This document shows positions 9,664-41,360 of a stretch of DNA of 64,000 bases, piece by piece. Source of the DNA: Roseburia sp. (GTDB taxonomy: Bacteria; Bacillota; Clostridia; Lachnospirales; Lachnospiraceae). The position numbers and the translations under genes were made by a program. The DNA is taken from assembly GCA_017937095.1 (NCBI GenBank), contig JAGBEG010000007.1:124001-188000 (forward strand), given 5' to 3'. Position 1 is the first letter of the stretch. Each line of letters starts with the position of its first letter. Under the pieces are notes generated by a model. It was not told the origin of the DNA. It made no database searches and worked only from the letters and a program-made list of their open reading frames with translations.

Positions 9664-9692
9664 TTAAATAATAGAACACTCTATGATACAAT
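9664..9692 (+). promoter_or_regulatory. Extended -10 promoter of the Dlt-like cassette
   Basis: TGATACAAT (9684-9692) is an extended -10 (TG-N-TACAAT). A weak -35 (TTAAAT, 9664-9669) lies 17 bases upstream. The expected transcription start (about 9699-9700) coincides with the first base of the structured element, so the RNA would begin exactly with that fold. Confidence 0.55.
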
Positions 9693-9698
9693 ATGCGC

Positions 9699-9840
9699 GT
9701 GGATAATGAGCGGTGCCAAGACGTGAAGAAACAAATATCCGTGCTCGCACGGGAATATTTGTTTCTTTGCGGATTGATAGGGCGAACGCCCGTGAACGTG
9801 CGGGCTATGCCCGCACGTTCGCACTGCGGAGTAGAATGGT
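9699..9840 (+). ncRNA. Candidate structured leader RNA, copy 1
   Basis: The outer stem GCGGTGC (9710-9716) pairs with GCACTGC (9821-9827). Inside are a 19-bp hairpin (9726-9744 with 9747-9767, two-base bulge), the conserved block TTGATAGG (9775-9782), a mini-hairpin GGGC-GAAC-GCCC (9780-9791) and an 11-bp hairpin (9794-9804 with 9810-9820). The same layout with different stem sequences recurs at 22656-22790: GAxAATGAG before the stem, GTGCCAA inside it, TTGATAGG, the CGAA mini-hairpin, the third hairpin and the closing stem. None of the hairpins ends in a U-tract, so it is not a simple terminator. I cannot assign it to a known riboswitch class. Confidence 0.65.
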
Positions 9841-9892
9841 GAGAACTACCAGGGCGAATTGCCCAAGCGTCAGCGATGAAAGAGGGAAAAGT

Positions 9893-11419
9893 TTGAAAAG
9901 TGTATTAGAATATTTTGAGCAGACAGCCGCGCGCTGCGGCGGCAGGACCGCGGTGGACGATGGAGAGCGCTGTTATTCCTGGCAGGAGCTTCGGGAGATG
10001 GCGCAGAGGATCGCATCGTCGTTTGTAAAGCAGCAGGACTGGCGCAACAAGCCGGTCGGCATTGTGATGGACAAGAGTGTGGATGCAGTTGCGGCGTTCC
10101 TCGGCAGTATGTATGCCGGAGCGTTTTATGTACTGATTAATCCGGAATACCCGAATGTGCGCATCGAGAAGATTTTAGATACGCTTGGAACAGACCTTCT
10201 CCTTATCGAGGCAAAATATGAGGACAAGATCAGGGCATGCGGGTATCAGGGATCTCTGATGGATATAGAAGAGGCGAAGCGGTCAGAAGTGCGCGAAGAG
10301 GCGCTTGCTAAGGTGCGGCACAGTGCGATGGATACGGATCTGCTCTACGGTATTTTTACCTCCGGCTCGACCGGAATACCGAAGTGCGTGGTCGCAAGCC
10401 ATCGGGCGGTCAGTGATTTTATCGGGCATTTTGCCGAACTGTTCGGATTTACGGAAGAGGATATTATCGGCAATCAGGCGCCGCTGGACTTTGATGTGTC
10501 GGTCAAGGACCTTTATACGGCGCTGTTTACCGGGGCAACGCTGGTGCTGATACCGAAGCATATGTTCTCGATGCCGCCGTCGCTTTTGGATTTTCTTTGT
10601 GAAAAGCATGTGACTTCACTGACATGGGCAGTCTCGGCTCTGTGCATCGTGACGACCTTACGGGGGTTCGAATACCGGATTCCGAAAGAGGTGCGCCGGG
10701 TGCTCTTCAGCGGTGAAGTGATGCCCTATAAGCATCTTGCGGCATGGAGAGAGGCGCTGCCGGACGCGAAGTTCGTGAATCTGTACGGACCGACGGAGAT
10801 CATCTGCAACTGTACCTATTACCGGGTCACGGGAGAGGAGGCAGAGAGTGCGCCGCTTCCAATCGGAGCGGCATTTCCGAACCGGAGGGTGTTCCTGCTG
10901 GATGAGACGGGGCACGAGGTAAAAGAAGCGGGAAAGCCGGGAGAAATCTGCGCTGCAGGCACTTCTCTGGCATCGGGGTACTACAATAACCCGGAGGCAA
11001 CGGCAAAGAGCTTTATACAAAATCCCCTCAACCCTTATTATCCCGAGACGATTTACCGCACCGGGGACATCGGTTGCTACAATGAAGCGGGGATACTCTG
11101 CTTTATGGGACGGAAGGACTTTCAGATCAAGCGGATGGGACACCGCATCGAACTGGAGGAGATACAGCTTACGCTCGAGAAGGCGGAGGGCGTGGAGCGC
11201 GTCTGCTGCGTTTACGGGGAACAGGAGGGCAAGCTTGTGGCATTCTACGCCGGGGCTGCGGATAAGAAGGAACTGCGCCGGGCGGCAAGAGAGCAGATGC
11301 CGGGCTTTATGATTCCCGATACGTTTCTGCAGATGGAGCAGATGCCGCTCACGAAGAACGGCAAGATTGACAGAGCGGCGCTTTGGAGCCGATATAAGGA
11401 GGAGAAGAAGAAACGATGA
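9893..11419 (+). CDS. DltA-like amino-acid adenylation enzyme
   Basis: Activates an amino acid with ATP and loads it on a carrier protein. All adenylation motifs are readable: TSGSTGIPK (residues 156-164), FDVSVKDL with the amine-binding Asp201, NLYGPTE (297-302 region), YRTGD, GRKDFQIKRMGHRIELEEI and the catalytic lysine in LTKNGKID. At 508 residues it is the length of DltA, without condensation or thiolation domains. TTG 9893 with AGAGGG upstream is chosen; the longer open frame would translate the structured leader. Where DltA has a Cys just before GEVLP (Cys269 in Bacillus cereus, from memory), this protein has Ser273 (SGEVMP), so D-alanine specificity is not assured. It is first in a five-gene cassette and overlaps the decarboxylase gene by ATGA. 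Confidence 0.88.
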   Translation: MKSVLEYFEQTAARCGGRTAVDDGERCYSWQELREMAQRIASSFVKQQDWRNKPVGIVMDKSVDAVAAFLGSMYAGAFYVLINPEYPNVRIEKILDTLGTDLLLIEAKYEDKIRACGYQGSLMDIEEAKRSEVREEALAKVRHSAMDTDLLYGIFTSGSTGIPKCVVASHRAVSDFIGHFAELFGFTEEDIIGNQAPLDFDVSVKDLYTALFTGATLVLIPKHMFSMPPSLLDFLCEKHVTSLTWAVSALCIVTTLRGFEYRIPKEVRRVLFSGEVMPYKHLAAWREALPDAKFVNLYGPTEIICNCTYYRVTGEEAESAPLPIGAAFPNRRVFLLDETGHEVKEAGKPGEICAAGTSLASGYYNNPEATAKSFIQNPLNPYYPETIYRTGDIGCYNEAGILCFMGRKDFQIKRMGHRIELEEIQLTLEKAEGVERVCCVYGEQEGKLVAFYAGAADKKELRRAAREQMPGFMIPDTFLQMEQMPLTKNGKIDRAALWSRYKEEKKKR

Positions 11420-12630
11420 CGCAGGAACAGATAGAACGCATGACGGCAGAATTTGATACCCCGCTGTATCTGTTCGATCTCGACGTGCTCCGTGAGGATA
11501 TTGCCGCGATGAAAGAGGTGCTGCAAGATCATGTCTCGCTTTGCTTTGCAATGAAAGCGAACCCGTTTCTTGCAAAGGAGATGGCGGGGCATGTGGAACG
11601 AATCGAGGTGTGTTCTCCGGGCGAGCTCAGAATCTGTATGGCGCAGAATATTCCGATGTCCAAGGTGGTGCTCTCGGGTGTCCTAAAGGAAGAGCGCGAC
11701 ATCGAGGAACTTCTTTGCGGCGGCGAGCTCCCGCTCTTTACGGCGGAGTCAGGGGAGCAGGCGGAGCTGCTTCGCCGTCTGGCGAAAAAGCACGGCCGGA
11801 ATATTTCGGTTCTGCTCCGCCTTACCAGTGGAAATCAGTTCGGAATGGATGAGGCGGTGCTGCTTGACGAGGCGGAGGCGCTTTTGGACTGTCCTTTTAC
11901 GGAGTTCGCGGGTATTCATTTCTTCTCGGGAACGCAGAAACGCAAGAGTGAACAGATCAGGAAGGAACTGGAAATGTTAGACGGGCTGTGCGCACGCGTA
12001 AAGGAGCGCACGGGAAAGGCTGTTTCGCATCTGGAATACGGACCGGGCTTTGGCGTGGAGTATTTTAAGGGAACAAAGCCATGGGGCTGCAGGGAGGCGC
12101 TTGGCGCGCTTTCTGATGCGTGTGAATGCGCTAAAGCCCTCACGTTCGGCGGTACGGTTACCTTTGAGATGGGAAGATTTCTCACCGCGATGTGCGGCAG
12201 CTTCGTGACGCGCGTGCGTGAGGTGAAGGAAAACGGCGGCGTGCGGTATTGTCTGGTGGACGGAGGAATGCACCACATCAATTATGACGGACAGGTCATG
12301 GCGATGAAGACGCCGCACTGCACACAGTTCCCGGCGAGGATGGACGAGGAGGAAGCGGACTACTGCATCTGCGGGGCGCTGTGTACGGCGAACGATATTC
12401 TGATCCGCAAATATCCGCTGCGGGGAATCGGACCCGGCGATCTGCTGGTGTTCGAGCGGACGGGCGCTTATTCCATGACCGAGGGAATGTCGCTTTTCTT
12501 AAGCCGGAATCTTCCTGCTGTGGTGTGCTATAGCAAAGACGGCGGTTATGAGGCGCTCCGGAAACAGACGCCGAGCTATCCGCTCAATATGCGGATGCCG
12601 GAGAATAAGGCAAATGCAGGGAAAACATGA
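11416..12630 (+). CDS. Fold-type III PLP decarboxylase (LysA/ornithine decarboxylase-like) in the Dlt-like cassette
   Basis: Predicted PLP-dependent amino-acid decarboxylase of the alanine-racemase-fold superfamily. Visible residues are the PLP lysine Lys47 (FAMKANP), His168 in IHFFSGTQ, the phosphate-binding GPGFG (209-213), EMGR (251-254), the catalytic Cys323 in CGALCTANDIL, and GAY (350-352). This set matches diaminopimelate/ornithine-type decarboxylases more than alanine racemase. It is 404 residues, complete, and translationally coupled to the adenylation enzyme. Canonical dlt operons have no such gene. It may make the amino acid that is activated, for example lysine from meso-diaminopimelate or an omega-amino acid from an acidic one, or it may act on a carrier-bound substrate. 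The substrate is not visible in the sequence. Confidence 0.85.
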   Translation: MTQEQIERMTAEFDTPLYLFDLDVLREDIAAMKEVLQDHVSLCFAMKANPFLAKEMAGHVERIEVCSPGELRICMAQNIPMSKVVLSGVLKEERDIEELLCGGELPLFTAESGEQAELLRRLAKKHGRNISVLLRLTSGNQFGMDEAVLLDEAEALLDCPFTEFAGIHFFSGTQKRKSEQIRKELEMLDGLCARVKERTGKAVSHLEYGPGFGVEYFKGTKPWGCREALGALSDACECAKALTFGGTVTFEMGRFLTAMCGSFVTRVREVKENGGVRYCLVDGGMHHINYDGQVMAMKTPHCTQFPARMDEEEADYCICGALCTANDILIRKYPLRGIGPGDLLVFERTGAYSMTEGMSLFLSRNLPAVVCYSKDGGYEALRKQTPSYPLNMRMPENKANAGKT

Positions 12631-12689
12631 AAAAGCAAGATGACGGCTATAATTCATAGAATCAGTTAAGAAAGAGGGAGATTAAGATT

Positions 12690-12920
12690 ATGGAAGAATT
12701 ACTTGAGATTTTAGAGGAAATTAACCCGGATGTAGATTACGAGACATGTACGACATTGATTGACGACCATATTCTGGATTCGTTTGCGATTTTATCGCTT
12801 GTATCTGAGCTGGAGGACGCATTCGATGTGCAGGTGTCGCCGGGCGATATGGTCGCGGAGAATTTTAACTCGGCAGAAGCAATCTGGAATATGGTAAAGA
12901 GACTGGAGGAAGAGGGCTGA
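12690..12920 (+). CDS. DltC-like acyl/aminoacyl carrier protein
   Basis: A 76-residue acidic four-helix carrier that would hold the activated amino acid on a phosphopantetheine arm. The attachment serine is Ser31 in HILDSFAILSLV, matching the DSM/DSL signature of carrier proteins. GAGGGAG precedes the ATG. It lies 59 bases after the decarboxylase and one base before the MBOAT gene, so it is dedicated to this cassette. Confidence 0.9.
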   Translation: MEELLEILEEINPDVDYETCTTLIDDHILDSFAILSLVSELEDAFDVQVSPGDMVAENFNSAEAIWNMVKRLEEEG

Positions 12921-12921
12921 T

Positions 12922-14511
12922 ATGGCTTATCACACATTACTGTTTCTGCTGGTGTTTCTGCCGCTCGTGCTGCTCATTTACCAGATTATGCCCAGGAAGT
13001 TCCGCCCGGCGGTACTTCTTGCCGCAGGGTATGCGTTCTTTTTTTCATTCAGCAGATTCCTCTTTGTATACCTGATCGGTGCAACAATCGTGATGTATGC
13101 GGCGGGGCTGCTGGTAGACAGGATGCAGCAGCGCTTTAAGGAACAGAAAAAGGGAATGGAACGCGCCGCTGTTAAGACGCTGAAAAAGCGTGTGACGGCG
13201 AGAGAGCGCTGGGTCGTGGCAGGGGGCGTGGTGCTTCTTGTAGGGGTGCTCGCGGTTGTCAAATATTATAATTTCTTTGCGCAGAATCTGACGGAGCTTC
13301 TGCATCTGTTTTCTATAGAGGGAGGCTTAAAGACGGTCACGTTTCTGCAGCCGATCGGAATCTCGTTCTACACGCTTCAGGCGGTAAGCTACATCGTGGA
13401 CGTCTACGAGGGGAAAATCCGGGCGGACCGCAATTTCGGAAGAGTCGCTTTGTATATGGCGTTTTTCCCGCAGATTATGGAAGGGCCGATTGCCAGATAT
13501 GAGCAGACGGCTGCGGCTCTCTGGCAGGGAGCGCCGCTTTCCTACCGAAATGTGTCGATGGGAGCGCAGCGCATCCTCTGGGGCCTGTTCAAGAAAATCG
13601 TGATTGCAGACCGCCTCAATGTGGTGGTCGCTGACATTTTTACTTATTATCAGAACTACGACGGCGCGATTCTGGCGCTTGGCGCGGTGGCATATACGAC
13701 GCAGCTTTACAATGAATTTTCCGGCTGTATGGATATTGTCATCGGAACGGCGGAGATGTTCGGCGTCACGCTGCCGGAGAATTTCAGACAGCCGTTTCTG
13801 TCAAAGAACGTATCGGAGTTCTGGCGCAGATGGCATGTGACGCTCGGCGCATGGCTTAAGGATTATATCTTTTATCCCGTCTCGCTTTCCGGCTGGGTGA
13901 AAAAGCTCGGAAACCGCACAAAGGAGCGGTTTGGAAAGCACGGCGCGAAGATCGTGGTCTCCGCCGCGGCGCTGTTTCCGGTCTGGCTGATCAACGGTCT
14001 GTGGCATGGTCCGCAGTGGAGTTATATTTTCTTTGGAATGTACTATTTTGTACTGATCATGGCGGGAATTGTATTTGAGCCGCTGACTGCGCGCTTCCAT
14101 GAGCGTCATCAGAATCTGGCTGCGCACAAAGGATTTATGGTATTCCAGATTGTCCGCACGACGATACTTGTCGTTATCGGAGAATTGTTCTTCCGGGCGC
14201 CCGGTCCCAGACAGGGACTTGTGATGTTAAAGCAGATTCTTACAAACTTCCACATCAGTGCGCTTTTTAGCGCGCCGATGGCGGAGCTGGGGCTTGACAT
14301 ACATGACGCGGTGCTCATTTTTGCGGCGGTCGCCATTGTGTTTGTTGTTGGACTGCTTCATGAGAAGGGTGTCCATATCAGGGAGCGCATCGAAAAGTTT
14401 CCGACGCCCCTTCGGTGGTGCAGTTACTACGCGCTGATCCTGGGCAATCTGATATTCGGCGCATACGGAGACGGCTATCTGGAAGTCGATCTGATCTATG
14501 CAAACTTTTAG
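12922..14511 (+). CDS. MBOAT O-acyltransferase, AlgI/DltB type
   Basis: Polytopic membrane enzyme expected to move the carrier-bound amino acid across the membrane onto an extracytoplasmic hydroxyl. The MBOAT signature EFWRRWHVTLGAWLKDYIFY (residues 299-318) and the catalytic His362 in LINGLWHGPQWS are intact. At 529 residues with about a dozen hydrophobic segments it matches AlgI/PatB-type enzymes better than the ~400-residue DltB. A charged cytoplasmic loop (about 67-97) separates early helices. It starts one base after the carrier-protein stop, behind GAGGAAGAGGG. The acceptor (teichoic acid, polysaccharide or lipid) is not indicated. Confidence 0.9.
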   Translation: MAYHTLLFLLVFLPLVLLIYQIMPRKFRPAVLLAAGYAFFFSFSRFLFVYLIGATIVMYAAGLLVDRMQQRFKEQKKGMERAAVKTLKKRVTARERWVVAGGVVLLVGVLAVVKYYNFFAQNLTELLHLFSIEGGLKTVTFLQPIGISFYTLQAVSYIVDVYEGKIRADRNFGRVALYMAFFPQIMEGPIARYEQTAAALWQGAPLSYRNVSMGAQRILWGLFKKIVIADRLNVVVADIFTYYQNYDGAILALGAVAYTTQLYNEFSGCMDIVIGTAEMFGVTLPENFRQPFLSKNVSEFWRRWHVTLGAWLKDYIFYPVSLSGWVKKLGNRTKERFGKHGAKIVVSAAALFPVWLINGLWHGPQWSYIFFGMYYFVLIMAGIVFEPLTARFHERHQNLAAHKGFMVFQIVRTTILVVIGELFFRAPGPRQGLVMLKQILTNFHISALFSAPMAELGLDIHDAVLIFAAVAIVFVVGLLHEKGVHIRERIEKFPTPLRWCSYYALILGNLIFGAYGDGYLEVDLIYANF

Positions 14512-14635
14512 CGCAGCAACGAGCAGAACCGAAGGTTCTGGAGTCTGCCCGTGGAAGGCTCAGTCGTCTGCCCCGTGGAAGGAAGAACAATGCAATATAG
14601 ATTTTTGCAAGCCTGCTTGCAAAGAAAGGAAAAAG
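14512..14635 (+). repeat. Intra-cassette spacer with hairpins and a 23-base-period duplication
   Basis: The 124-base gap between the MBOAT and SGNH genes holds a hairpin (CAGAACC 14524-14530 with GGTTCTG 14534-14540). It also holds a near-perfect duplication of GTCTGCCCGTGGAAGG (14543-14558 and 14566-14582, one inserted C) and a GCAAG/CTTGC hairpin (about 14607-14620). No U-tract follows, so it does not look like a terminator. The gene downstream starts behind AAAGGAAAAAG. Confidence 0.5.
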
Positions 14636-15595
14636 ATGAAAAGGGAAAGTAAGCTGGTAAGGTGTTTCCTGTTTTTTGGAATATTTGCGGTGATACTTGC
14701 GGTGCTCTCGGTGCTATTCTACCCCAAGAGCAATACGATAGAGGCGGGCGTTCCGGAGCGCGACGTGAAGCTATCCGGTATTTTCGGTGCGCCGGAGAAC
14801 TCTGTGGACGTCGTTGTGCTGGGGGACAGCGTGAGCTATACGTCGATTGCCCCGCTGCAGATGTGGGATGAGCAGGGGATTACTTCTTATGTCTGTGCAC
14901 AGTCCGGACAGAAGGTGACGGAAGCCTACTACTGGCTCAAGAAGATTTATGAACAGCAGACGCCGGAGCTCCTCGTGCTCGAGGCGAATATTCTCTATAA
15001 TTATGAGAGCTTCGAGAAGGAGACAAACGCCGCGCTGGAGACGCATCTCGGCTATTATATACCGATTTTTAAATATCACAACCGCTGGAAGAACCTGAAC
15101 GCGGATGACTTCCTTCTGAAATTTGAGAAGGTGGGAAGGGATTTCGCGCGCGGTTATGTCGAGAAGACCGGAGCGCAGCCGTATTCCGGCGGGTCCTATA
15201 TGAAGCAGGGACGCAAGGTCGATGAAATCGACGAAGTGGCGGAGTTTTATCTTGAGGAGATCAGAAAGCTCTGCGAGAAGCACGGAACTACACTTGTGCT
15301 TGTGAGCATTCCGTCTCCGCGCAACTGGAATTATGCGCGCCATAACGGAGTCATGGCATATGCAAAGGAGCAGAATCTTAACTATCTGGACATGAATCTG
15401 CACACGAAGGAGATGGGAATCGACTGGCGGCTGGATACGCTGGATGCCGGAGATCACATGAATGAGGCGGGGGCAGAGAAGGTTACCGGGTATCTGGGAG
15501 CATACCTGAAGGAGGAATTTGCACTGGAAGATCACCGGTCGGACCCGGCATATGAGATCTGGAATGAAAATGCGGATGATTTCGAGGAACAGTAA
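14636..15595 (+). CDS. Membrane-anchored SGNH-hydrolase-like protein (DltD/AlgX-like role)
   Basis: Probably the extracytoplasmic partner of the MBOAT enzyme. A membrane anchor (about residues 8-29) is followed by an outward domain with the SGNH block I VVVLGDSVSYTS (Ser65) and a late Asp-X-X-His block (GDHMNEAGAEKV). This matches DltD/AlgX-type proteins that complete acyl transfer outside the membrane. The ATG at 14636 (MKRESKLVR) gives a clean anchor; the longer open frame reads through the repeat spacer and is rejected. Length 319 residues. Last gene of the cassette. Overall similarity to DltD is weak, so the call rests on motifs and position. Confidence 0.78.
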   Translation: MKRESKLVRCFLFFGIFAVILAVLSVLFYPKSNTIEAGVPERDVKLSGIFGAPENSVDVVVLGDSVSYTSIAPLQMWDEQGITSYVCAQSGQKVTEAYYWLKKIYEQQTPELLVLEANILYNYESFEKETNAALETHLGYYIPIFKYHNRWKNLNADDFLLKFEKVGRDFARGYVEKTGAQPYSGGSYMKQGRKVDEIDEVAEFYLEEIRKLCEKHGTTLVLVSIPSPRNWNYARHNGVMAYAKEQNLNYLDMNLHTKEMGIDWRLDTLDAGDHMNEAGAEKVTGYLGAYLKEEFALEDHRSDPAYEIWNENADDFEEQ

Positions 15596-15631
15596 CCGGC
15601 AGGCGTGATTTGAGAAATCCGAAATTATTTC

Positions 15632-15661
15632 TTAACAAATAAAGGCAATTCGTGTTATATT
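15632..15661 (+). promoter_or_regulatory. Sigma-A promoter of glnS
   Basis: TTAACA (15632-15637) and TATATT (15656-15661) are 18 bases apart. The transcript would carry a leader of about 110 bases before the glnS start, with GAGGAGG close to the ATG. Confidence 0.7.
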
Positions 15662-15781
15662 ATACTTGCACCTTGCGGGCGTATCATGTATGATATTTCA
15701 TGAGTTGCTTTCTTTATTTGTAGGAGGCAAAGCTACGGCAGTCATTTTGACGGCATTGGAATTGAGGAGGATACAGACATT

Positions 15782-17470
15782 ATGGAAAATGAAAATGTCT
15801 CAAAGAATTTTATTGAACAGATGATTGATAAGGACATAGAGGAGGGGCATTGCAAAGTCGTTCACACCAGATTTCCGCCGGAACCGAATGGCTATCTGCA
15901 CATTGGACATGCGAAGTCCATTCTTTTGAATTACGGGCTGGCGCAGAAGTATGGCGGAAAGTTCAATCTCAGATTTGACGATACGAACCCGACGAAGGAG
16001 AAGACGGAATTTGTCGAGGCGATTATCGAGGATATCAAGTGGCTTGGAGCGGACTGGGAGGACAGGCTCTTTTTTGCATCGGATTATTTCGACCAGATGT
16101 ATGAGGGAGCGGTAAAGCTTATCAAAAAGGGCAAGGCGTATGTATCCGATCTCTCTGCGGACGAGATCAGAGAGTATCGCGGAACGCTCACTGAGCCGGG
16201 AAAGGAAGACCCTTACAGCACGAGGAGCATCGAAGAGAACCTAAAGCTTTTCGAGGAAATGAAGGACGGAAAGTATGCGGACGGCGAGAAGGTGCTCCGC
16301 GCCAGAATCGACATGGCGTCTTCCAATATCAATATGAGAGATCCGGTCATCTACCGTGTGGCGCATATGACGCATCACAGAACCGGAGACAAATGGTGCA
16401 TTTACCCGATGTACGATTATGCGCATCCCATCGAGGATGCGATTGAGGGAGTGACGCATTCGATCTGTACGCTGGAGTTTGAGGATCACAGACCGCTCTA
16501 CGACTGGGTGATTGCTGAGGTCGGCGCGGATATGCGTCCGGATAAGGACGATATGGCGCCAAGGCAGATTGAGTTCGCAAAGCTTTATCTTACTAACGTA
16601 GTAACCGGAAAGCGCTATATCAAGCGTCTGGTGGAGGAAGGCATCGTAGACGGCTGGGACGATCCGCGTCTGGTATCGATCGCTGCGCTTCGCAGAAGAG
16701 GCTTTACGCCGGAGTCGCTTAAGCTGTTCGTGGATCTGTGTGGTATCTCCAAGGCGAACAGTTCCGTGGATTATGCGATGCTTGAGTACTGTATCCGCGA
16801 GGATCTTAAGATGAAGAAATCCCGCATGATGGCAGTGCTTGACCCGGTGAAGGTCATCATTGACAATTATCCCGAGGGGCAGACGGAATATCTTCCGGTC
16901 GTCAACAACCTCGAGAACGAGGCGCTTGGCACGCGTGAGGTCCCGTTTTCCAGAGAGCTTTATATCGAGAGAGAGGATTTCATGGAGGAGCCGCCGAAGA
17001 AGTATTTCCGTATGTTCCCGGGCAATGAAGTGCGCCTGATGAATGCATATTTTGTGACCTGCAACAGCTTTGAGAAGGATGAGAACGGTAAGGTGACGGT
17101 CATCCATTGTACCTACGATCCGGCGTCGAAGGGCGGCAACAGCCCGGACGGCAGAAAGGTAAAGGGCACGATTCACTGGGTGGATGCGGCGCACGCGATC
17201 AATGCGACCGTGCGGCTGTATGAGAATATCGTGGATGAGGAGAAGGGTGTATACAATGAGGACGGCAGCCTGAATCTGAATCCCAATTCGCTTACGGTAC
17301 TTGAGAATTGTATGGTGGAGGAGAACCTTGCGGGAGCGAAGGCATATGACAGCTTCCAGTTCGTGAGACAGGGCTTCTTTAATGTGGATGCGAAGGATTC
17401 TGCGCCGGAGCATCTGGTGTTCAACCGGATTGTCTCGCTGAAGAGTTCCTTCAAACTGCCAACAGCGTAA
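15782..17470 (+). CDS. glnS: Glutaminyl-tRNA synthetase
   Basis: Charges tRNA-Gln with glutamine in the cytoplasm. A class I synthetase: the HIGH motif is in [12 protein letters not shown] (about residues 35-46). The catalytic Rossmann fold with [10 protein letters not shown] follows, then the beta-barrel anticodon-binding domains (about 350-555). The 562-residue length is usual for bacterial GlnRS, without the YqeY fusion seen in some relatives. The KMSKS loop is degenerate: where the E. coli enzyme has VMSKRK this one has VTGKRY, keeping the Lys-Arg pair. It starts behind a strong GAGGAGG and is followed 40 bases later by the DUF2225 gene. Confidence 0.96.
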
Positions 17471-17510
17471 GCCGCTTATACATTTCGGGAGAAGACAAGG
17501 AGGAATATCT

Positions 17511-18359
17511 ATGAATTTATTATCTGGATTGGAAAAATTCGGTTTAAAGGCGGAGGATACGACGAACCTTTTTGAGGAAGAGAAGAAGACGACGGTGGCT
17601 GCTGACGGAACGAAGAAGGAGGCGGTGCAGGACGAGAACAGCTTTCTTCTGGACAAGGCAATCCGCTGTACCGTATGTGATAAAGTATTCAAGGCGAAGA
17701 TGATCAAGAGCGGACGCCTTAAGAGACTGGAATCTGACCGGGATCTGCGCCCGCGTTATGACGGAATCGACACACTGAAATACAGCGTCATTTCCTGCCC
17801 GTATTGCGGTTATACGGCAATCAACCGCTATTTTGAGCATCTTTCTTCTATGCAGGTGAAGATGATCAAGGAGCAGGTCTGCATGAAGTTCAAGCCGGAC
17901 GGAAGTGTGGAACCGACGCTGATCGATTATGATACGGCGATCGAGCGCTATAAGCTGTCTCTTTTTAATACGATTGTAAAGAAGGGCAAGACGAGTGAGA
18001 AGGCGTATACCTGTCTGAATCTTGCATGGCTTTTCCGCGGCAAGGCAGAGACTTTGGATCCGTCGGCGGAACAGGAGATCAAGGAGTGTAAGGAGCAGGA
18101 GGAAGCATTCTACGCGCAGGCGTTTGAAGGGCTTACCAAGGCAGTCTCCACTGAGACTTATCCGATTTGCGGTATGGATGAGTGCACGATGGACTATCTG
18201 CTTGCAACGATGGCATATCATTATAAGAAATATGATGTGGCGTCAAAATGTATCGCACGAATCATGCAGTCGGCAGCGGCGTCCAAGAAGATGAAGGACC
18301 GCGCATACGAATTGAAGGAACAGATCGTAGCAGAGATTAAGAAGACCAAGCAGCAGTAA
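17511..18359 (+). CDS. DUF2225 family zinc-ribbon protein
   Basis: Cytoplasmic protein of unknown function found widely in Firmicutes. The 282-residue chain has a zinc-ribbon-like pair of cysteine knuckles, CTVCDKVF (about 53-60) and CPYCGY (about 97-102). These are followed by an all-helical, TPR-like second half (about 140-280) with helix pairs such as AYTCLNLAWLFRGKAE. AAGGAGGAATATCT precedes the ATG. It lies between glnS and the MocR gene on the same strand, and its stop shares a base with that gene's start. The sequence gives no clue to its substrate. Confidence 0.85.
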   Translation: MNLLSGLEKFGLKAEDTTNLFEEEKKTTVAADGTKKEAVQDENSFLLDKAIRCTVCDKVFKAKMIKSGRLKRLESDRDLRPRYDGIDTLKYSVISCPYCGYTAINRYFEHLSSMQVKMIKEQVCMKFKPDGSVEPTLIDYDTAIERYKLSLFNTIVKKGKTSEKAYTCLNLAWLFRGKAETLDPSAEQEIKECKEQEEAFYAQAFEGLTKAVSTETYPICGMDECTMDYLLATMAYHYKKYDVASKCIARIMQSAAASKKMKDRAYELKEQIVAEIKKTKQQ

Positions 18360-19867
18360 TGATAGAGATAATGATTGATTTGCAGGGGGGAGCGAAAGCT
18401 CCCCTCTATGAGAAAATATATGAACATATCAAGCGTGAAATTGTGGGGGGCAAGATTGCAACGGGAGAAAAACTGCCCTCCACACGCCGTTTGGCGGGAA
18501 ATCTCGCGGTGAGCAGAAGCACCGTAGAGATGGCTTATGACCAGCTCCTGGCAGAGGGGTATATTCAGTCCCAACCCTGTCGGGGGTTTTTTGTATGCGA
18601 TATTGCACAGTTATATCGTCTCGGGACAGCGGATATGCAGACTCCGGCAGAAGAGGAGCGGGAGAGCGGGGAAGCCTGTGAGGTGGATTTTTCCCCGTAT
18701 GCCATCGACACAGGAAGCTTTCCGTATAACATCTGGCGCAAGATCAGCAGAAATGTACTGATGGATGACAGGGAGGAATTGCTCCTCGCCGGGGACGGAC
18801 AGGGAGAATACGGGCTGCGCAGTGAGATTGCAGGCTATCTTCATCAGGCGCGCGGCGTCAACTGTAGTCCATCCGATGTGATTCTTGGGGCGGGAAATGA
18901 ATATCTGGAAATTCTGCTCGCACAGCTTCTGGGAGGAGAGCGGACGATACTGATGGAGAATCCGGGATATCCGCAGGCATACCGTACCTTTTGCAATATG
19001 GGGTATCAGGTGAAGACGGTCGCCGCCACGGAGCAGGGATTAAATGTGCAGACTGTGCGTGACGTATCGCCGGAGCTTGTCTATATCATGCCTTCGCATC
19101 AGTTCCCGCTGGGGTCGGTCATGCCGCTTAAGGCGCGTCTGGAACTGCTTGCATGGGCGGCAGAGAAACCAGAGCGTTATCTGATCGAGGACGACCACGA
19201 CAGTGAGTACCGTTACCGCGGAAAGCCGATCCCGTCGCTTCAAAGCGTGGATGGGCAGGGCAAGGTGATTTATCTGGGGACTTTTTCCAAGAGCATTGCG
19301 CCTTCGCTTCGTATCAGCTACATGGTGTTGCCGCCGCAGTTGATGGAGCGTTACCGGGAAAATTGCGGTTTCTATTCGACGACGGTGCCGCGTATGCTTC
19401 AGGACATCCTGAAGGAATTTATCCGGGACGGACATTTTGAACGTCATCTGAATAAGATGAGAGGCGTTTACCGCAGCCGTCACGATTTCCTGCTCGGGGA
19501 ATTAAAAAAACGCGGCTGGGTCAGGAAGGTCAGCGGCGATCATGCAGGATTGCATGTGCTGGTGGAGGTGGATACGACGCTTACAGAGGAAGAACTCTGC
19601 AAAAGGGCGCGCATGCAGGGCGTCGCGGTTTCGGGCTTGAAGGAATATGAACTGGAACGTGCCAAGGCAGATACGGAAGTTGTTTTAGAAAGAACGCAGA
19701 TAAGCGGGGAAGCGGCTGCCAAAAGAGGAGCGGGAAGCAAAGAGGGGGGAAGGAGCGGAGGCTTTCCGGTGCTTCTGCTCGGATACGGAAAGCTCACAGA
19801 GCCGGAGATCGCGAAGGGACTTGAGGTGCTGGATGCTGTCTGCGACAGCCGCCATGCGGACTTTTGA
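18359..19867 (+). CDS. MocR/PdxR-type GntR regulator with aminotransferase domain
   Basis: Transcription regulator built from an N-terminal GntR winged helix (about 10-80: PLYEKIYEHIKREIVGG, LPSTRRLAGNLAVSRSTVE) and a C-terminal fold-I aminotransferase domain. The PLP lysine is in YLGTFSKSIAPSLR. Family members sense PLP or amino compounds such as GABA and switch vitamin B6 or amino-acid genes. The start (ATG at 18359, one base inside the previous stop) has no good Shine-Dalgarno sequence, so translation may depend on coupling; ATG 18371 is an alternative. A Lys/Gly/Ser-rich insertion (ISGEAAAKRGAGSKEGG) interrupts the C-terminal subdomain. Its targets are not evident nearby. Confidence 0.9.
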   Translation: MIEIMIDLQGGAKAPLYEKIYEHIKREIVGGKIATGEKLPSTRRLAGNLAVSRSTVEMAYDQLLAEGYIQSQPCRGFFVCDIAQLYRLGTADMQTPAEEERESGEACEVDFSPYAIDTGSFPYNIWRKISRNVLMDDREELLLAGDGQGEYGLRSEIAGYLHQARGVNCSPSDVILGAGNEYLEILLAQLLGGERTILMENPGYPQAYRTFCNMGYQVKTVAATEQGLNVQTVRDVSPELVYIMPSHQFPLGSVMPLKARLELLAWAAEKPERYLIEDDHDSEYRYRGKPIPSLQSVDGQGKVIYLGTFSKSIAPSLRISYMVLPPQLMERYRENCGFYSTTVPRMLQDILKEFIRDGHFERHLNKMRGVYRSRHDFLLGELKKRGWVRKVSGDHAGLHVLVEVDTTLTEEELCKRARMQGVAVSGLKEYELERAKADTEVVLERTQISGEAAAKRGAGSKEGGRSGGFPVLLLGYGKLTEPEIAKGLEVLDAVCDSRHADF

Positions 19868-19923
19868 TTCCGTAGGAAGCATTGCTTTGATATGTTACAA
19901 CAACATGACATTTTCTGCAGAGT

Positions 19924-19960
19924 AAAAACTCCGGATCGTTTGAGACGAACCGGAGTTTTG
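19924..19960. terminator. Bidirectional terminator between MocR gene and argG
   Basis: The hairpin ACTCCGG..TCGT with ACGA..CCGGAGT is flanked by AAAAA on the left and TTTT on the right. It can serve the plus-strand MocR gene and the minus-strand argG gene that ends at 19992. Confidence 0.8.
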
Positions 19961-19991
19961 TGTACTTTGTTATTGTGCAAAAAGCGGTGAT

Positions 19992-21221
19992 TTATTCGTA
20001 CTTATTCTTCTCGCCGATTTCCTGCATACGCATTGCACGGACCTTAAGCGGCAGACCGAACAGGGTGATAAATCCGGCTGCGTCGTGGTGATCGTAGAGA
20101 TCTCCGGTCGTAAAGCTTGCTAAGGACTCGCTGTAGAGTGAGTACGGGGAAGTTGTGCCTGCCTTGATGATGTTGCCCTTGTAGAGCTTGAACTTTACTT
20201 CGCCGGTCACATATTCCTGTGTGGAGGTTACGAAAGCTCTCACTGCGTCGCAGAGCGGCGTGTACCATTTTCCTTCGTAGACGATCTGCGCGAGCTTGTT
20301 GCCCATATCCTTCTTGACCTCCATGGTAGCGCGGTCTAATACCAGCTCCTCGAGCTGCTGATGCGCCTCCATGAGGATTGTTCCGCCCGGAGTCTCATAA
20401 ACGCCGCGGGACTTCATTCCGACAACACGGTTCTCAACGATGTCGATGATGCCGATGCCGTGCTTGCCGCCGAGGCGGTTCAGCTCGCGGATGATATCGG
20501 AGACCTTCATCTTCTTGCCGTTGACGGAGGTAGGAACACCCTTCTCAAAGGTCATGGTCACATACTCGCCCTCTTCCGGAGCTTTCTCCGGGGATACGCC
20601 AAGGACTAACAGATGATCGTAATTCGGTTCGCATGCCGGATCTTCAAGCTCAAGACCTTCATGGCTGATGTGCCAGATGTTGCGGTCGCGGCTGTAGCTG
20701 GAGTCTGCGGAGAACGGAAGATCGATGCCGTGCGCCTTGCAGTATGCAATCTCGGACTCGCGGGAATCCATCGTCCACTTGTCGTCTCTCCATGCTGCGA
20801 TGATCTTAAGATCAGGAGCAAGAGCCTTGATGGCAAGCTCGAAGCGAATCTGGTCATTTCCTTTTCCGGTAGCGCCGTGGCAGATTGCGGTAGCGCCTTC
20901 TTTTCTTGCAATCTCGACCAGCTTCTTGCCGATTAACGGGCGTGCCATGGAGGTACCGAGCAGATACTTGTTCTCGTATACGGCATTTGCCTGAACGCAC
21001 GGCATAATGTAATCCTCGCAGAATTCGTCGATAATGTCTACGATGTATAACTTGGAAGCGCCGCAGGAGATGGCTCTCTCCTCAAGACCGTCCAGTTCCT
21101 CCTCCTGACCGCAGTCGATACAGCAGCAGATAACTTCGTAATCGTAATTCTCCTTTAACCATGGGATGATGGCGGTCGTGTCCAGTCCGCCGGAGTAAGC
21201 TAAGATAACTTTTTCTTTCAT
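19992..21221 (-). CDS. argG: Argininosuccinate synthase
   Basis: Joins citrulline and aspartate with ATP to make argininosuccinate, the penultimate step of arginine synthesis. The N-terminal ATP-pyrophosphatase loop [15 protein letters not shown] (about 8-22) and the family blocks [14 protein letters not shown] and [14 protein letters not shown] are present. At 409 residues it has standard length. ATG 21221 follows AAAGGAC; the longer open frame to 21281 has no support. It is transcribed away from the argC operon, with a sigma-A promoter at 21306-21334 and an ArgR-box-like operator about 20 bases upstream of its -35. No argH lies beside it in this window. Confidence 0.97.
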
Positions 21222-21305
21222 GGGAAACGTCCTTTCTTTGTATAATTGCGGTTCGTACCGGCACAATCTGTCGCAGTGCACGCGTCCGAATCACTGACTG
21301 CAATC

Positions 21306-21334
21306 AATATACAACAAATGCCGTGGAAAAGCAA
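21306..21334 (-). promoter_or_regulatory. Sigma-A promoter of argG
   Basis: On the minus strand TTGCTT (21334-21329) and TATATT (21311-21306) are separated by exactly 17 bases. It drives argG, which starts about 85 bases downstream. Confidence 0.65.
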
Positions 21335-21356
21335 GTGAAAAAATATACATATTTGG

Positions 21357-21370
21357 TGAATGAAAATGCA
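21357..21370. promoter_or_regulatory. ArgR-box-like operator 1
   Basis: TGAATGAAAATGCA matches 12 of 14 positions of the ArgR consensus TGAATWWWWATTCA. It sits upstream of both arginine promoters. Confidence 0.55.
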
Positions 21371-21474
21371 CAAACATGTGCAAAGATGACAGAAGCGGTC
21401 TGCAGCGGGCATATAATATAGGGAATAGAAAATTATATTTCGGGAAAATCTTTGTATAAAAAGAAAAACAGGTA

Positions 21475-21503
21475 TTGCATAAAAAGATGAATGGATGTAT
21501 AAT
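21475..21503 (+). promoter_or_regulatory. Sigma-A promoter of the argC operon
   Basis: TTGCAT (21475-21480) and a perfect TATAAT (21498-21503) are 17 bases apart. The hexamers fall inside an inverted repeat (TTGCATAA 21475-21482 with TTATGCAA 21503-21510). Confidence 0.75.
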
Positions 21504-21509
21504 TATGCA
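21496..21509. promoter_or_regulatory. ArgR-box-like operator 2, overlapping the -10
   Basis: TGTATAATTATGCA matches 12 of 14 positions of the ArgR consensus and contains the argC -10 hexamer, so binding would block RNA polymerase directly. Confidence 0.6.
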
Positions 21510-21602
21510 AAAATATTTCCCGGAAATTTACAAAAAGGGCTTTACTATGGCAGAGAGGTAGACTAATATAATAAGGATAGAATACGAAAGGCGGATGAAA
21601 CG

Positions 21603-22658
21603 ATGATAAAAGCAGGAATTATCGGCGCGACCGGATATGCAGGCAATGAGCTGGTGCGTCTTCTGATGGGACATAAAGAGGTAGAGATTAAATGGTACGG
21701 TTCGAGAAGCTACATTGATGAGAAGTATGCCAATGTTTACCGGAATATGTTTGAGATTGTGGACGGCGTGTGTCTGGATGACAATATGGAAGCTCTGGCA
21801 GAGCAGGTGGATGTCATTTTCACGGCGACGCCGCAGGGCTTTTTGGCAGGCGTGCTGACAGAGGAGATTTTACAGAAGACGAAGATCATCGATCTGTCCG
21901 CGGATTTCCGCATCAAGGATGTGGCTACATATGAGAAGTGGTATAAGCTTGAGCACAAGAGCCCGCAGTTCATTGAGGAAGCGGTCTACGGGCTCTGCGA
22001 GGTGAACCGGGAGAAGGTGCGGGGCGCGCGTCTGGTGGCAAATCCGGGCTGTTATACGACCTGTTCGATTCTGACAGCATATCCGCTTGTTGCGGAGGGG
22101 CTGATCGATCCGAATACATTGATTATCGATGCAAAGTCGGGCACTTCAGGCGCGGGGCGCGGCGCGAAGCTGCCGAACCTCTTCTGCGAGGTCAACGAGA
22201 ATATGAAGGCTTACGGCGTGACGAACCACAGACATACGCCGGAGATCGAGGAACAGCTTGGCTACGCGGCGGGGAAAGAGGTCACGATCAATTTCACGCC
22301 GCATCTGGTGCCGATGAACCGAGGAATCTTAGCGACAGAGTATGCGGCGCTTGTCCGCAAGGCGGATGGAAGCCTTCCGGCTTATGAGGAAGTAAAGGCG
22401 GTCTATGACAAATATTACGCGAAAGAGAAGTTCGTCCGCGTATTGGAGAAGGACGTCTGCCCGGAGACGAAGTGGGTCGAGGGAAGCAACTATGTGGATA
22501 TCGGCTTTAAGATTGATGAGCGCACCGGAAGAATCGTTATGATGGGAGCGCTGGACAATCTCGTGAAGGGAGCCGCAGGACAGGCGGTGCAGAACATGAA
22601 TCTGCTGTTCGGCTTTGACGAGGCAGAAGGACTGAACCTTGTACCGATGTTCCCGTAG
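21603..22658 (+). CDS. argC: N-acetyl-gamma-glutamyl-phosphate reductase
   Basis: Reduces N-acetylglutamyl phosphate to the semialdehyde with NADPH, the third step of ornithine/arginine synthesis. The N-terminal dinucleotide-binding loop GIIGATGYAGNEL (about 5-17), the catalytic cysteine in VANPGCYTTCS (about 150) and the late histidine in GVTNHRHTPEIEE identify it. The 351-residue length is typical of the long form. AAAGGCGG precedes the ATG. It is the first gene of the argC-GNAT-argJ-argB-argD operon, and its stop codon lies at the very edge of the structured element at 22656-22790. Confidence 0.97.
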   Translation: MIKAGIIGATGYAGNELVRLLMGHKEVEIKWYGSRSYIDEKYANVYRNMFEIVDGVCLDDNMEALAEQVDVIFTATPQGFLAGVLTEEILQKTKIIDLSADFRIKDVATYEKWYKLEHKSPQFIEEAVYGLCEVNREKVRGARLVANPGCYTTCSILTAYPLVAEGLIDPNTLIIDAKSGTSGAGRGAKLPNLFCEVNENMKAYGVTNHRHTPEIEEQLGYAAGKEVTINFTPHLVPMNRGILATEYAALVRKADGSLPAYEEVKAVYDKYYAKEKFVRVLEKDVCPETKWVEGSNYVDIGFKIDERTGRIVMMGALDNLVKGAAGQAVQNMNLLFGFDEAEGLNLVPMFP

Positions 22659-22790
22659 ACAATGAGTCGTGCCAAAGCAGTGGGAAACAGACCGGCTGCT
22701 TGCAGACGAGGCTGGTTCTGGCTGTTTTGATAGGACGAAGTCCGGGAGCAAGAGAGCATAGCTCCCTCGCGTGCACGACAGCAATAGTTA
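22656..22790 (+). ncRNA. Candidate structured RNA, copy 2
   Basis: The outer stem GTCGTGC (22666-22672) pairs perfectly with GCACGAC (22773-22779). Inside are a long imperfect hairpin (AAACAG 22685-22690 with CTGTTT 22722-22727, ACCGGC with GCTGGT), the block TTGATAGG (22727-22734), the mini-hairpin GGAC-GAA-GTCC (22733-22743) and GGGAGC (22744-22749) pairing with GCTCCC (22761-22766). The order, the shared single-stranded blocks and the differing but still paired stems match copy 1 at 9699-9840. Here it is intra-operonic, filling the gap between argC and the GNAT gene, with no promoter evident just upstream. Confidence 0.65.
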
Positions 22791-22813: not shown

Positions 22814-23275
22814 ATGGAAAATCAGGAAGTAATCATCCGTGTGATGACAATGGAGGATTTTGACGAGGTACATGCGCTCTGGATGGAGATTCATGGATTT
22901 GGAATACGAAGCATCGACGACTCAAGAGAGGGCGTGGAGCGTTTCATAAAGCGCAATCCTACGACGAGCATGGCGGCGGTCGCAGACGGCAGGATCGTGG
23001 GAGCGATTCTCTGCGGACACGATGGCAGACGCGGCTGTCTCTATCATGTCTGCGTGAAGGAGGAGTACCGCAAGCACGGAATCGGGCAGAAGCTGGTGTG
23101 CGCGTGTCTTGAAGCGTTAAAAAGCGAGCATATCAATAAGGTCAACCTGATCGCATTTAAGAAGAACGAGGTCGGGAACCGCTTCTGGCAGGGACTTGGC
23201 TGGACGTTCCGCGAAGATGTCAATTACTACGAATACATCACGAACGAAGAGAACGTGACGACTTATAACCCATAG
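22814..23275 (+). CDS. GNAT-family N-acetyltransferase in the arginine operon
   Basis: A 153-residue acetyl-CoA-dependent transferase of the GNAT fold. The acetyl-CoA loop lies in VKEEYRKHGIGQKLV (Arg/Gln-x-x-Gly-x-Gly/Ala pattern), with a following helix and the C-terminal FWQGLGWTFREDVNYYEY. It resembles small YpeA/RimI-like proteins. The ATG at 22814 follows AAGGGATTAG; longer open reading into the structured RNA is rejected. Its place between argC and argJ raises the possibility of an N-acetylglutamate-synthase-like role, although ArgJ can supply N-acetylglutamate itself. The substrate is unproven. Confidence 0.85.
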   Translation: MENQEVIIRVMTMEDFDEVHALWMEIHGFGIRSIDDSREGVERFIKRNPTTSMAAVADGRIVGAILCGHDGRRGCLYHVCVKEEYRKHGIGQKLVCACLEALKSEHINKVNLIAFKKNEVGNRFWQGLGWTFREDVNYYEYITNEENVTTYNP

Positions 23276-41237: not shown

Positions 41238-41281
41238 GCGTGAGAGTAAGGAATTAGCGCCGGAAATGCCGCATGTAAGAG

Positions 41282-41327
41282 AGGCTATCGCGAAATTGCA
41301 GATGTGTAATTTCGCGATAGCCTTTTT
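41282..41327 (+). terminator. Intrinsic terminator after the small gene
   Basis: A perfect 16-bp stem (41282-41297 with 41308-41323) followed by TTTTT. It faces the minus-strand asnB end 34 bases away and may also slow that transcript, although the minus-strand U-tract is poor. Confidence 0.92.
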
Positions 41328-41360
41328 CCGGCTCTAAGGCGCACGATAGCGGCGAACGCG

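Follow-up and report, generated by a model that had tools for sequence, protein, structure and literature searches.

The closest described relative of the element studied here is the Clostridiales-1 RNA (RF01699), which Rfam types as 'Gene; sRNA'. Judged by titles and the starts of abstracts, PMC2864571 (Weinberg and colleagues, 2010) alone reports this motif; it lists it as a likely RNA, with an 'n' for both cis-regulatory and switch. We analyzed a 64,000-nt stretch of a Roseburia sp. genome (contig JAGBEG010000007.1, positions 124,001 to 188,000; below, the window), in which an earlier note, made from the letters of the DNA, had pointed to two copies of an unrecognised structured RNA. Both are members of a large family that resembles Clostridiales-1 RNA, and computation gave us its structure, its size and spread, a rule for its position, its turnover between species and the strand-specific selection that acts on it. 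Our preferred reading, to which we give a probability of roughly one half, is that these are folded interspersed RNA repeats that lie at the 5' border of untranslated segments and act there as decay or processing barriers. Among the literature matches listed, titles and abstract starts gave no published account of the family; PMC8040213, which presents 3161 RNA candidates from the human microbiome, may hold one in its tables.

A covarying structure under selection as RNA

Elements of the family are 130–150 nt long. The consensus opens with a box (CGCG or CACG) and RGCAATGAGC, followed by the 5' strand of a seven-pair closing stem (P1). Next is P2, a long hairpin that ends in a TGCTTGCA-type loop and has a GA/GA internal loop close to its base. 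It is followed by the bases GATA, a mini-hairpin GGGC-GAAN-GCCC (P3), a short linker (GTGA or GCGA), a further hairpin (P4), the 3' strand of P1 and a final GG. We built a genus-level alignment of 79 copies (A5; rows at E ≤ 3e-8, left from 122 rows of the covariance model R1 once antisense matches to P2, duplicate loci and a number of weak rows had been dropped). Standard pairs filled 92.1% of its cells, 44 of 46 pairs changed on both sides, and the covariation score was 0.568, a value that fell to 0.100 or less once partners were slid. A wider alignment (A6; 49 rows from other genera and families) was 93.3% paired, here too with changes on both sides in 44 of 46 pairs, and scored 0.802 against at most 0.115; the slid-partner controls had 35%–48% of cells paired. 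Both alignments were fitted to the model structure, and these figures are biased towards the model, a reservation that bears on our reading; the excess over the slid controls is far beyond what we would expect from such a bias. Pairing is weakest at the base of P4 (helix 9, 76.1% in the 79-copy alignment; helix 8, 81.1% in the 49-row alignment). The two window copies each beat 200 of 200 dinucleotide shuffles in folding (z of −8.6 for copy 1 and −4.0 for copy 2), and the compensatory differences that the earlier note had described in the closing stem and the mini-hairpin are real in both.

We compared each P2 with its own reverse complement under strand-symmetric scores, on the premise that a palindrome maintained at the DNA level would hold G-T and A-C mismatches in equal numbers. 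Among 50 non-redundant genus copies, G-U outnumbered A-C by 57 to 19 (p = 1.5e-5) and G-A outnumbered C-T by 91 to 3; the 41 wider copies gave 23 to 10 (p = 0.035) and 60 to 4, respectively. Both skews indicate selection on the sense strand, as for RNA, and the sense RNA is under selection. The strand-specific excess of G-U and the pairs that vary on both sides together bear out the earlier claim of a selected RNA structure.

A chance similarity, or a correction of inverted repeats at the DNA level that mimics RNA covariation, seems to us very improbable. One-arm copying can keep long P2 palindromes perfect, and G-U pairs are fewer than expected in both covariation alignments, so that the stems are nearly perfect Watson-Crick helices, a point that also counts against our own reading. 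However, P1, P3 and P4 covary as well, including the separated strands of the junction, and the strand skew in P2 is at odds with a pure DNA process; chance is further contradicted by the presence of the family in well over a hundred genera (below). DNA-level arm-copying may nevertheless help to keep the stems near-perfect. We also rejected a conserved small open reading frame (ORF). Among 58 distinct copies with both the ATG of AATGAG and TGATAG, the two are in frame in 48 and out of frame in 10; these frame breaks, many internal stops and a GCTTGC loop read in differing frames speak against a conserved peptide.

Copy number and spread

Two copies, as first noted, proved far too few. In the genome of the window (the own genome), the exact pattern GTGCCAA-N(30,60)-TTGATAGG had eight matches, both window copies included, with none for the reversed control. 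R1, built on six copies, gave 30 rows at E ≤ 1e-5, which amount to ∼28 separate sites, two rows being tandem neighbours; in some tallies tandem copies are counted apart (three at L047, two each at L190 and L212). Matches at E ≤ 0.01 were present in 19 of 60 relatives (own genome included) and in two of 25 genera. When one genome per genus was drawn from the Lachnospiraceae, 149 of 250 matched the covariance model R2 at E ≤ 1e-4 (122 of the 202 good genomes). A class-wide draw of 391 genomes yielded 26 with matches: 14 from the same family, one from the same order (weak, at 34 bits) and 11 from other families of the class. Per-genome copy counts from these large searches are lower bounds, few candidates having been scored. 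A pattern scan of contigs gave mostly chance-like hits among the matches listed (R1 matched L087 and not L089), and a pattern scan of viral contigs found no element. A covariance-model search, which the earlier note had proposed, thus finds many Lachnospiraceae homologues with covarying pairs. At this frequency, many leaders and gene junctions in the family carry an unexplained RNA, for which Rfam 15 gives no above-threshold match in the window.

A sister group of Clostridiales-1 RNA

None of the Rfam 15 families reached its gathering score in the window, and a permissive scan of all of it gave a single unrelated place at E ≤ 0.3. RF01699, with a gathering cut-off of 48 bits, scored 19.8 bits on a short stretch of copy 1 and had no match at E ≤ 5 on copy 2 (locus L025). 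On sister copies it scored 41.6 (L018), 39.9 and 30.3 bits at three of 19 loci, and on family-level loci from 44.3 (L351) down to 30.7 bits at six of 20. The sub-threshold matches on sister copies cover the full model on the sense strand in every row, with no antisense hairpin matches among those listed. The description of the RNA as unrecognised therefore holds at the gathering score, with the qualification that a sub-threshold relative exists.

A seven-pair closing stem, a long first hairpin with a GCUUGC loop and two further hairpins are common to both, as in the alignment of L018, where the closing stem surrounds three hairpins over model positions 1–166. Both also reach many copies in some genomes. 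They differ in the second hairpin, which is long in RF01699 (UGAGcA/GGAaUGCGAA), whereas in the window family its place is taken by P3, which has four pairs in the copies listed; 42 model positions of this hairpin are matched by no more than a short counterpart in L018. In the opposite direction, R2 on 31 RF01699 loci gave 22 rows at E ≤ 1 (best 31.2 bits), mostly copies from genome G026 and none of the strongest members. Bona fide RF01699 members exceeded the cut-off in 19 of the 60 genus-search genomes, with one place in the own genome. On these sequence comparisons, we conclude that the window family is best regarded as a new sister group of RF01699 and not as a member.

Most elements lie after −10 boxes or at stop codons

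We examined the position of 136 copies (90 from the genus and 46 wider) against a background of 2329 random positions. A −10 hexamer stood directly upstream of 71 of 136 copies, compared with 2.2% of random positions, and the stop codon of an ORF of at least 100 codons fell at the element start in 37 (2.4% of random positions). T-runs preceded 14 copies, a weak excess (10% vs. 6.3%), and tRNAs called by ARAGORN preceded two, with a background near 0. The remaining 21 fell into no position class; before three of these (L378, L379, L384) there are tRNA-like or 5S-like ends, recognised by eye only. One element (L348) follows an S-adenosylmethionine (SAM) riboswitch (74 bits, over the cut-off) and another (L361) a T-box match below the cut-off (76.3 of 93 bits, E = 1e-14), each with a T-run between. 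Within the promoter class, 42 of 63 copies have exactly 3 nt between the hexamer and the 5' box. Hidden promoters before the stop-class copies find no support: the mean −10 match at the same offset was 2.38 of 6 there, vs. about 1 to 2.4 at other offsets and a much stronger 4.18 in the promoter class. At the 3' end of an ABC-transporter gene in five species (L212 in genome G020; L024, L046, L196 and L211), the element provides the stop codon.

RF01699 follows the same rule in the genus, where 14 of 17 copies, several of them near-identical, lie at −10 boxes, stop codons or T-runs; a motif classed as not cis-regulatory in 2010 can thus be reread.

The longest downstream ORF was co-directional with the element in 112 of 137 cases, opposite in 21 and absent in four. 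By Pfam, the 24 proteins downstream of own-genome sites (two without a Pfam match) share no pathway or function. They include MutS-like, sulphite reductase, Sua5, ArgS, EPSP synthase, AddB and NrdD proteins, as well as UvrD, the acetolactate synthase small subunit, TruA-like, SpoVAC/SpoVAEB, NlpC/P60 and LytTR proteins. A place in the leader, unpaired blocks that are conserved and a pseudoknot, here a probable one (below), are what one would expect of a riboswitch, or of a protein-controlled attenuator, that answers to one ligand or signal. The absence of a gene theme makes a riboswitch unlikely, and we ruled out a single-ligand one on the unrelated genes; no expression platform was seen, and some copies lie at stop codons or behind tRNAs, which leaves the whole class of explanation improbable. 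A global RNA-binding protein may act on the element.

Somewhat better placed, though still unlikely, is a trans-acting small RNA (sRNA), with each copy the gene or precursor of a discrete RNA. The compact fold with well-defined ends, the copies after tRNA-like or 5S-like ends or facing an opposite ORF, and the Rfam type of RF01699 all agree with it. No terminator directly follows the element in the copies that were read, no systematic terminator scan having been made; the prevailing co-direction with the downstream ORF also argues against it, and a single sRNA would not usually have ∼28 copies that differ in P2 within the same genome.

A probable pairing between the 5' box and the linker

A scan of 153 registers was run over 114 of the 136 copies, the rest having no clear anchor or P3. 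The best register sets bases 10 to 8 before ATGAG against the first three linker bases after P3, and 31 of 114 copies have Watson-Crick triples there, compared with 11.2 expected and a maximum of 21 in 300 shuffles. The combinations are CGC/GCG (15 copies), CAC/GTG (13) and CGC/GTG (12), with no CAC/GCG among those listed. Split by class, Watson-Crick triples occur in 21 of 63 promoter copies (11.2 expected) and in 10 of 51 others (2.2 expected), counts that none of 5000 shuffles equaled in either case; these shuffles ignore relatedness, and variation is mostly at one position. The argC copy, with box CCC and linker GGG, is outside the 114-copy set, its P1 having missed the anchor pattern. At the ABC-transporter 3' end, the G020 linker CCG matches a host box CGG, and the linker in the other four species is GCG. 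A pseudoknot between the 5' box and the P3–P4 linker is probable on this evidence.

Besides the limits of the shuffles, other points weaken the case. When G-U is allowed, the promoter class reaches 34 of 63 against 30.0 expected, a marginal difference (p = 0.046), and the third linker base is also part of the first P4 pair. The promoter-class box would lie just upstream of +1, so that pairing there would not be purely RNA-level; it would be either a DNA-level matter or a sign of unusual starts. Complementarity between the left flank and an internal linker recalls the guide-target mechanism of IS200/IS605 elements, and is equally explained by the RNA pseudoknot. We rejected that mechanism: the Y1 transposase (PF01797) had no match in the own genome (94.57% complete) and was matched in five of 14 controls, and the linker change in G020 fits later coevolution better.

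Copies come and go between species

Across the argC loci of 22 relatives, R2 gave no match at E ≤ 0.1; the argC copy was thus seen in the own genome only. The element in the argS leader recurs in one of 23 relatives with a close argS, namely G020, as two tandem copies; the ArgC and ArgS proteins of G020 are 96% identical to those of the own genome. We compared own-genome sites with G020 at nine sites common to both by their flanking proteins, at 12 others and at argC. R2 searches of whole loci detected an intact element at none of the 12 orthologous G020 loci, their lone match being an 18-bit remnant at the site of window copy 1, and 13 own-genome sites (the 12 and argC) are thus without an intact copy in G020. 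Two of the 12 alignments (L011 and L021) are unreadable upstream. Of the 10 alignable sites, four are cleanly empty, four hold pieces and two are replaced by other sequence; about the first 26 bases remain at window copy 1, and upstream sequence to the −10 region is still recognisable across the 10. In their gains and losses, the copies behave like small mobile repeats. P2 could be extracted from 10 of 12 pairs with orthologues from G020, G035, G002 or G006, and in seven it was closer to an own-genome paralogue than to the orthologue (one tie, two opposite), which suggests that copies exchange their P2 or that it is rapidly rewritten.

The related RNA has an openly transposon-like form. Genome G026 carries near-identical 140-nt copies of RF01699 with GTAACAGTTCAG/CTGAACTGTTAC ends (loci L235–L246). 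Perfect 8-bp direct repeats flank eight of these 12 copies and none of 132 swapped pairs; a thirteenth locus at a contig end (L234) was left out. By their sequence, these copies appear to be a real case of a Clostridiales-1 RNA turned transposon-like. Their GTAA ends and 8-bp duplication length presumably match those of miniature inverted-repeat transposable elements (MITEs) mobilised by IS66-like elements, a likeness not seen for the window family.

The earlier note had named a mobile palindromic repeat as the alternative to a selected RNA; this is still a plausible reading in spite of the covariation, as the element also behaves like an interspersed repeat that is gained and lost between species. 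In its strongest form, the element would be a small mobile repeat of the MITE, REP or BOX kind, purely selfish, with a fold that serves only its own spread and positions that reflect insertion site or tolerance. The ∼28 sites in one genome, several with near-identical P2, fit such a repeat, as do the nine sites common with G020 beside 13 without an intact copy there, the partial tandem duplications, and the transposon-like ends and target duplications of RF01699 in G026. On the other hand, the skews of G-U over A-C and G-A over C-T point to selection on sense RNA, one spacing to the −10 box prevails, and promoter sequence persists upstream of G020 sites without the element. No Y1 transposase was found in the own genome, nor a clear target duplication, by eye, at argC, the one window-family site looked at closely. 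We regard this explanation as possible, if less probable than a barrier, and rank it not far behind.

A more doubtful variant is a bacterial, SINE-like, RNA-mediated mobile element that would insert at the borders of transcription units, be it a start site, a terminator U-run, the end of a tRNA or a stop codon. It would be transcribed from host signals beside its landing site and exchange its long hairpin between copies, a picture we offer with little confidence. Equally speculative is the last part of this variant, in which the landing site would be recognised by pairing between linker and flanking box (CGC/GCG, CAC/GTG, and CCC/GGG at argC).

The two copies of the window and their surroundings

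Both elements are where the earlier note had placed them, with the shared blocks present, as the sequence and the R2 matches confirm (Table 1).

Table 1. Features at the two elements of the window (positions counted from its first letter)
Feature	Position	Strand	Basis
Extended −10 promoter element (TG..TACAAT), just 5' of copy 1	9684–9692	+	Sequence; spacing common to most promoter-class copies
Copy 1, 5' box CGC; proposed partner, linker 9792–9794, with one G-U	9696–9698	+	Register scan, 114 copies
RNA element copy 1, leader of Dlt-like operon	9701–9829	+	Covariance-model (R2) extent, 125.8 bits
Copy 1, P1 5' strand GCGGTGC; 3' strand GCACTGC at 9821–9827	9710–9716	+	Sequence, fold, covariation
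Copy 1, P2 long hairpin, TGCTTGCA-type loop (here TGCTCGCA), GA/GA internal loop	9717–9776	+	Fold, covariation
Copy 1, P3 mini-hairpin GGGC-GAAC-GCCC	9780–9791	+	Fold, covariation
Copy 1, P4 hairpin, variable	9794–9820	+	Fold, covariation
AMP-binding enzyme gene (DltA-like), 3' of copy 1	9896–11419	+	9896 in frame; start codon putative
argC (N-acetyl-gamma-glutamyl-phosphate reductase), 5' of copy 2	21603–22658	+	Pfam semialdehyde dehydrogenase domains
Copy 2, 5' box CCC within last argC codons; complement, linker GGG 22744–22746	22652–22654	+	Sequence
RNA element copy 2, start within argC stop codon	22657–22781	+	Covariance-model (R2) extent, 92.9 bits
Copy 2, P1 5' strand GTCGTGC; 3' strand GCACGAC at 22773–22779	22666–22672	+	Sequence, fold, covariation
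Copy 2, P2 hairpin, TGCTTGCA loop	22673–22729	+	Fold, R2 alignment
Copy 2, P3 mini-hairpin GGAC-GAA-GTCC	22733–22743	+	Fold, R2 alignment
Copy 2, P4 hairpin	22746–22772	+	R2 alignment; single-sequence fold pairs region otherwise
GNAT acetyltransferase gene, 3' of copy 2	22814–23275	+	Pfam

Other R2 matches in the window at E ≤ 5 are two weak ones, at 635–737 (16.7 bits, E = 0.036) and 41261–41419 (14.5 bits, E = 0.13), likely chance or decayed copies. Transcription of copy 1 is predicted to start near 9699, and in its single-sequence fold P4 begins with the third linker base. The genes after copy 1 encode, in order, the AMP-binding enzyme, a protein resembling pyridoxal phosphate (PLP)-dependent decarboxylases, and an MBOAT protein, in agreement with the Dlt-like cassette described before. 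Copy 2 occupies, again as described, a gap in the arginine operon, in the order argC, copy 2, GNAT gene, argJ; we infer the name argC from the protein's domains and the operon context. At the position of the copy 2 5' box, TTYCC is kept in relatives without the element.

Several other repeats occur near elements. Several of them (L005 and L007 in the own genome; window 9860–9875) are followed by partial tandem duplicates of their 3' half (P2 3' arm, P3, P4, P1 3' strand), and extra GGGCGAAT(T)GCCC-AAGCGTCAGC hairpins stand 3' of several elements at the same places. A separate palindromic repeat, TATAATGTCGTYAGACATTATA, is found in 5' leaders, after the element or in place of it (downstream at L021; L333 in G020). 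In genome G017, a further long repeat that contains inverted parts stands both downstream of argC and upstream of argS (L271, L298). A different tandem hairpin repeat (CGATTTGCGGCGCAAAAACAGCGCC...) lies in the argC–GNAT gap of genome G022 (L258), which suggests that this gap collects repeats.

Discussion

A rigid fold at the 5' edge, selection on the sense strand and use after promoters and stop codons alike together suggest a decay barrier or a processing border. The elements mostly open an untranslated stretch, directly behind a −10 box or at a stop codon and in some cases behind a terminator or a tRNA. In this proposal, their rigid fold would block 5'-to-3' decay or mark a processing boundary, and the RNA 3' of the element would be protected as a result. 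The Firmicute decay enzymes RNase J and RNase Y underlie the idea of a decay barrier.

Beyond the reservations already given for the alignments, the stems and the box pairing, several observations weigh against this reading. The 'transcription start' of the promoter class rests on −10 hexamers, which are predicted from sequence. In the 21 cases with an opposite longest downstream ORF, the element is not a leader, so it is not always one. Only four of the 12 amplified RF01699 copies in G026 lie at boundaries of the kind described, and the turnover of copies together with the likeness of P2 to paralogues would fit a selfish repeat as well.

Among known systems, the ERIC, BIME/REP and Correia elements belong to other lineages. 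They are described in PMC3049150 as intergenic palindromic repeats that are reported to alter attenuation, decay or cleavage of the transcripts that contain them; the window family differs from them in its boundary rule at promoters and stop codons and in its multi-helix junction. Closer are the BOX elements of Streptococcus pneumoniae, which PMC3049150 presents as small interspersed repeats built of modules, the inner ones in variable number, that fold upon transcription and are thought to affect co-transcribed genes. The likeness is one of description, and the window family is set apart by its strong covariation and by the fixed distance to promoters that prevails among its copies. With these differences, the pneumococcal BOX elements appear to be the nearest working analogue.

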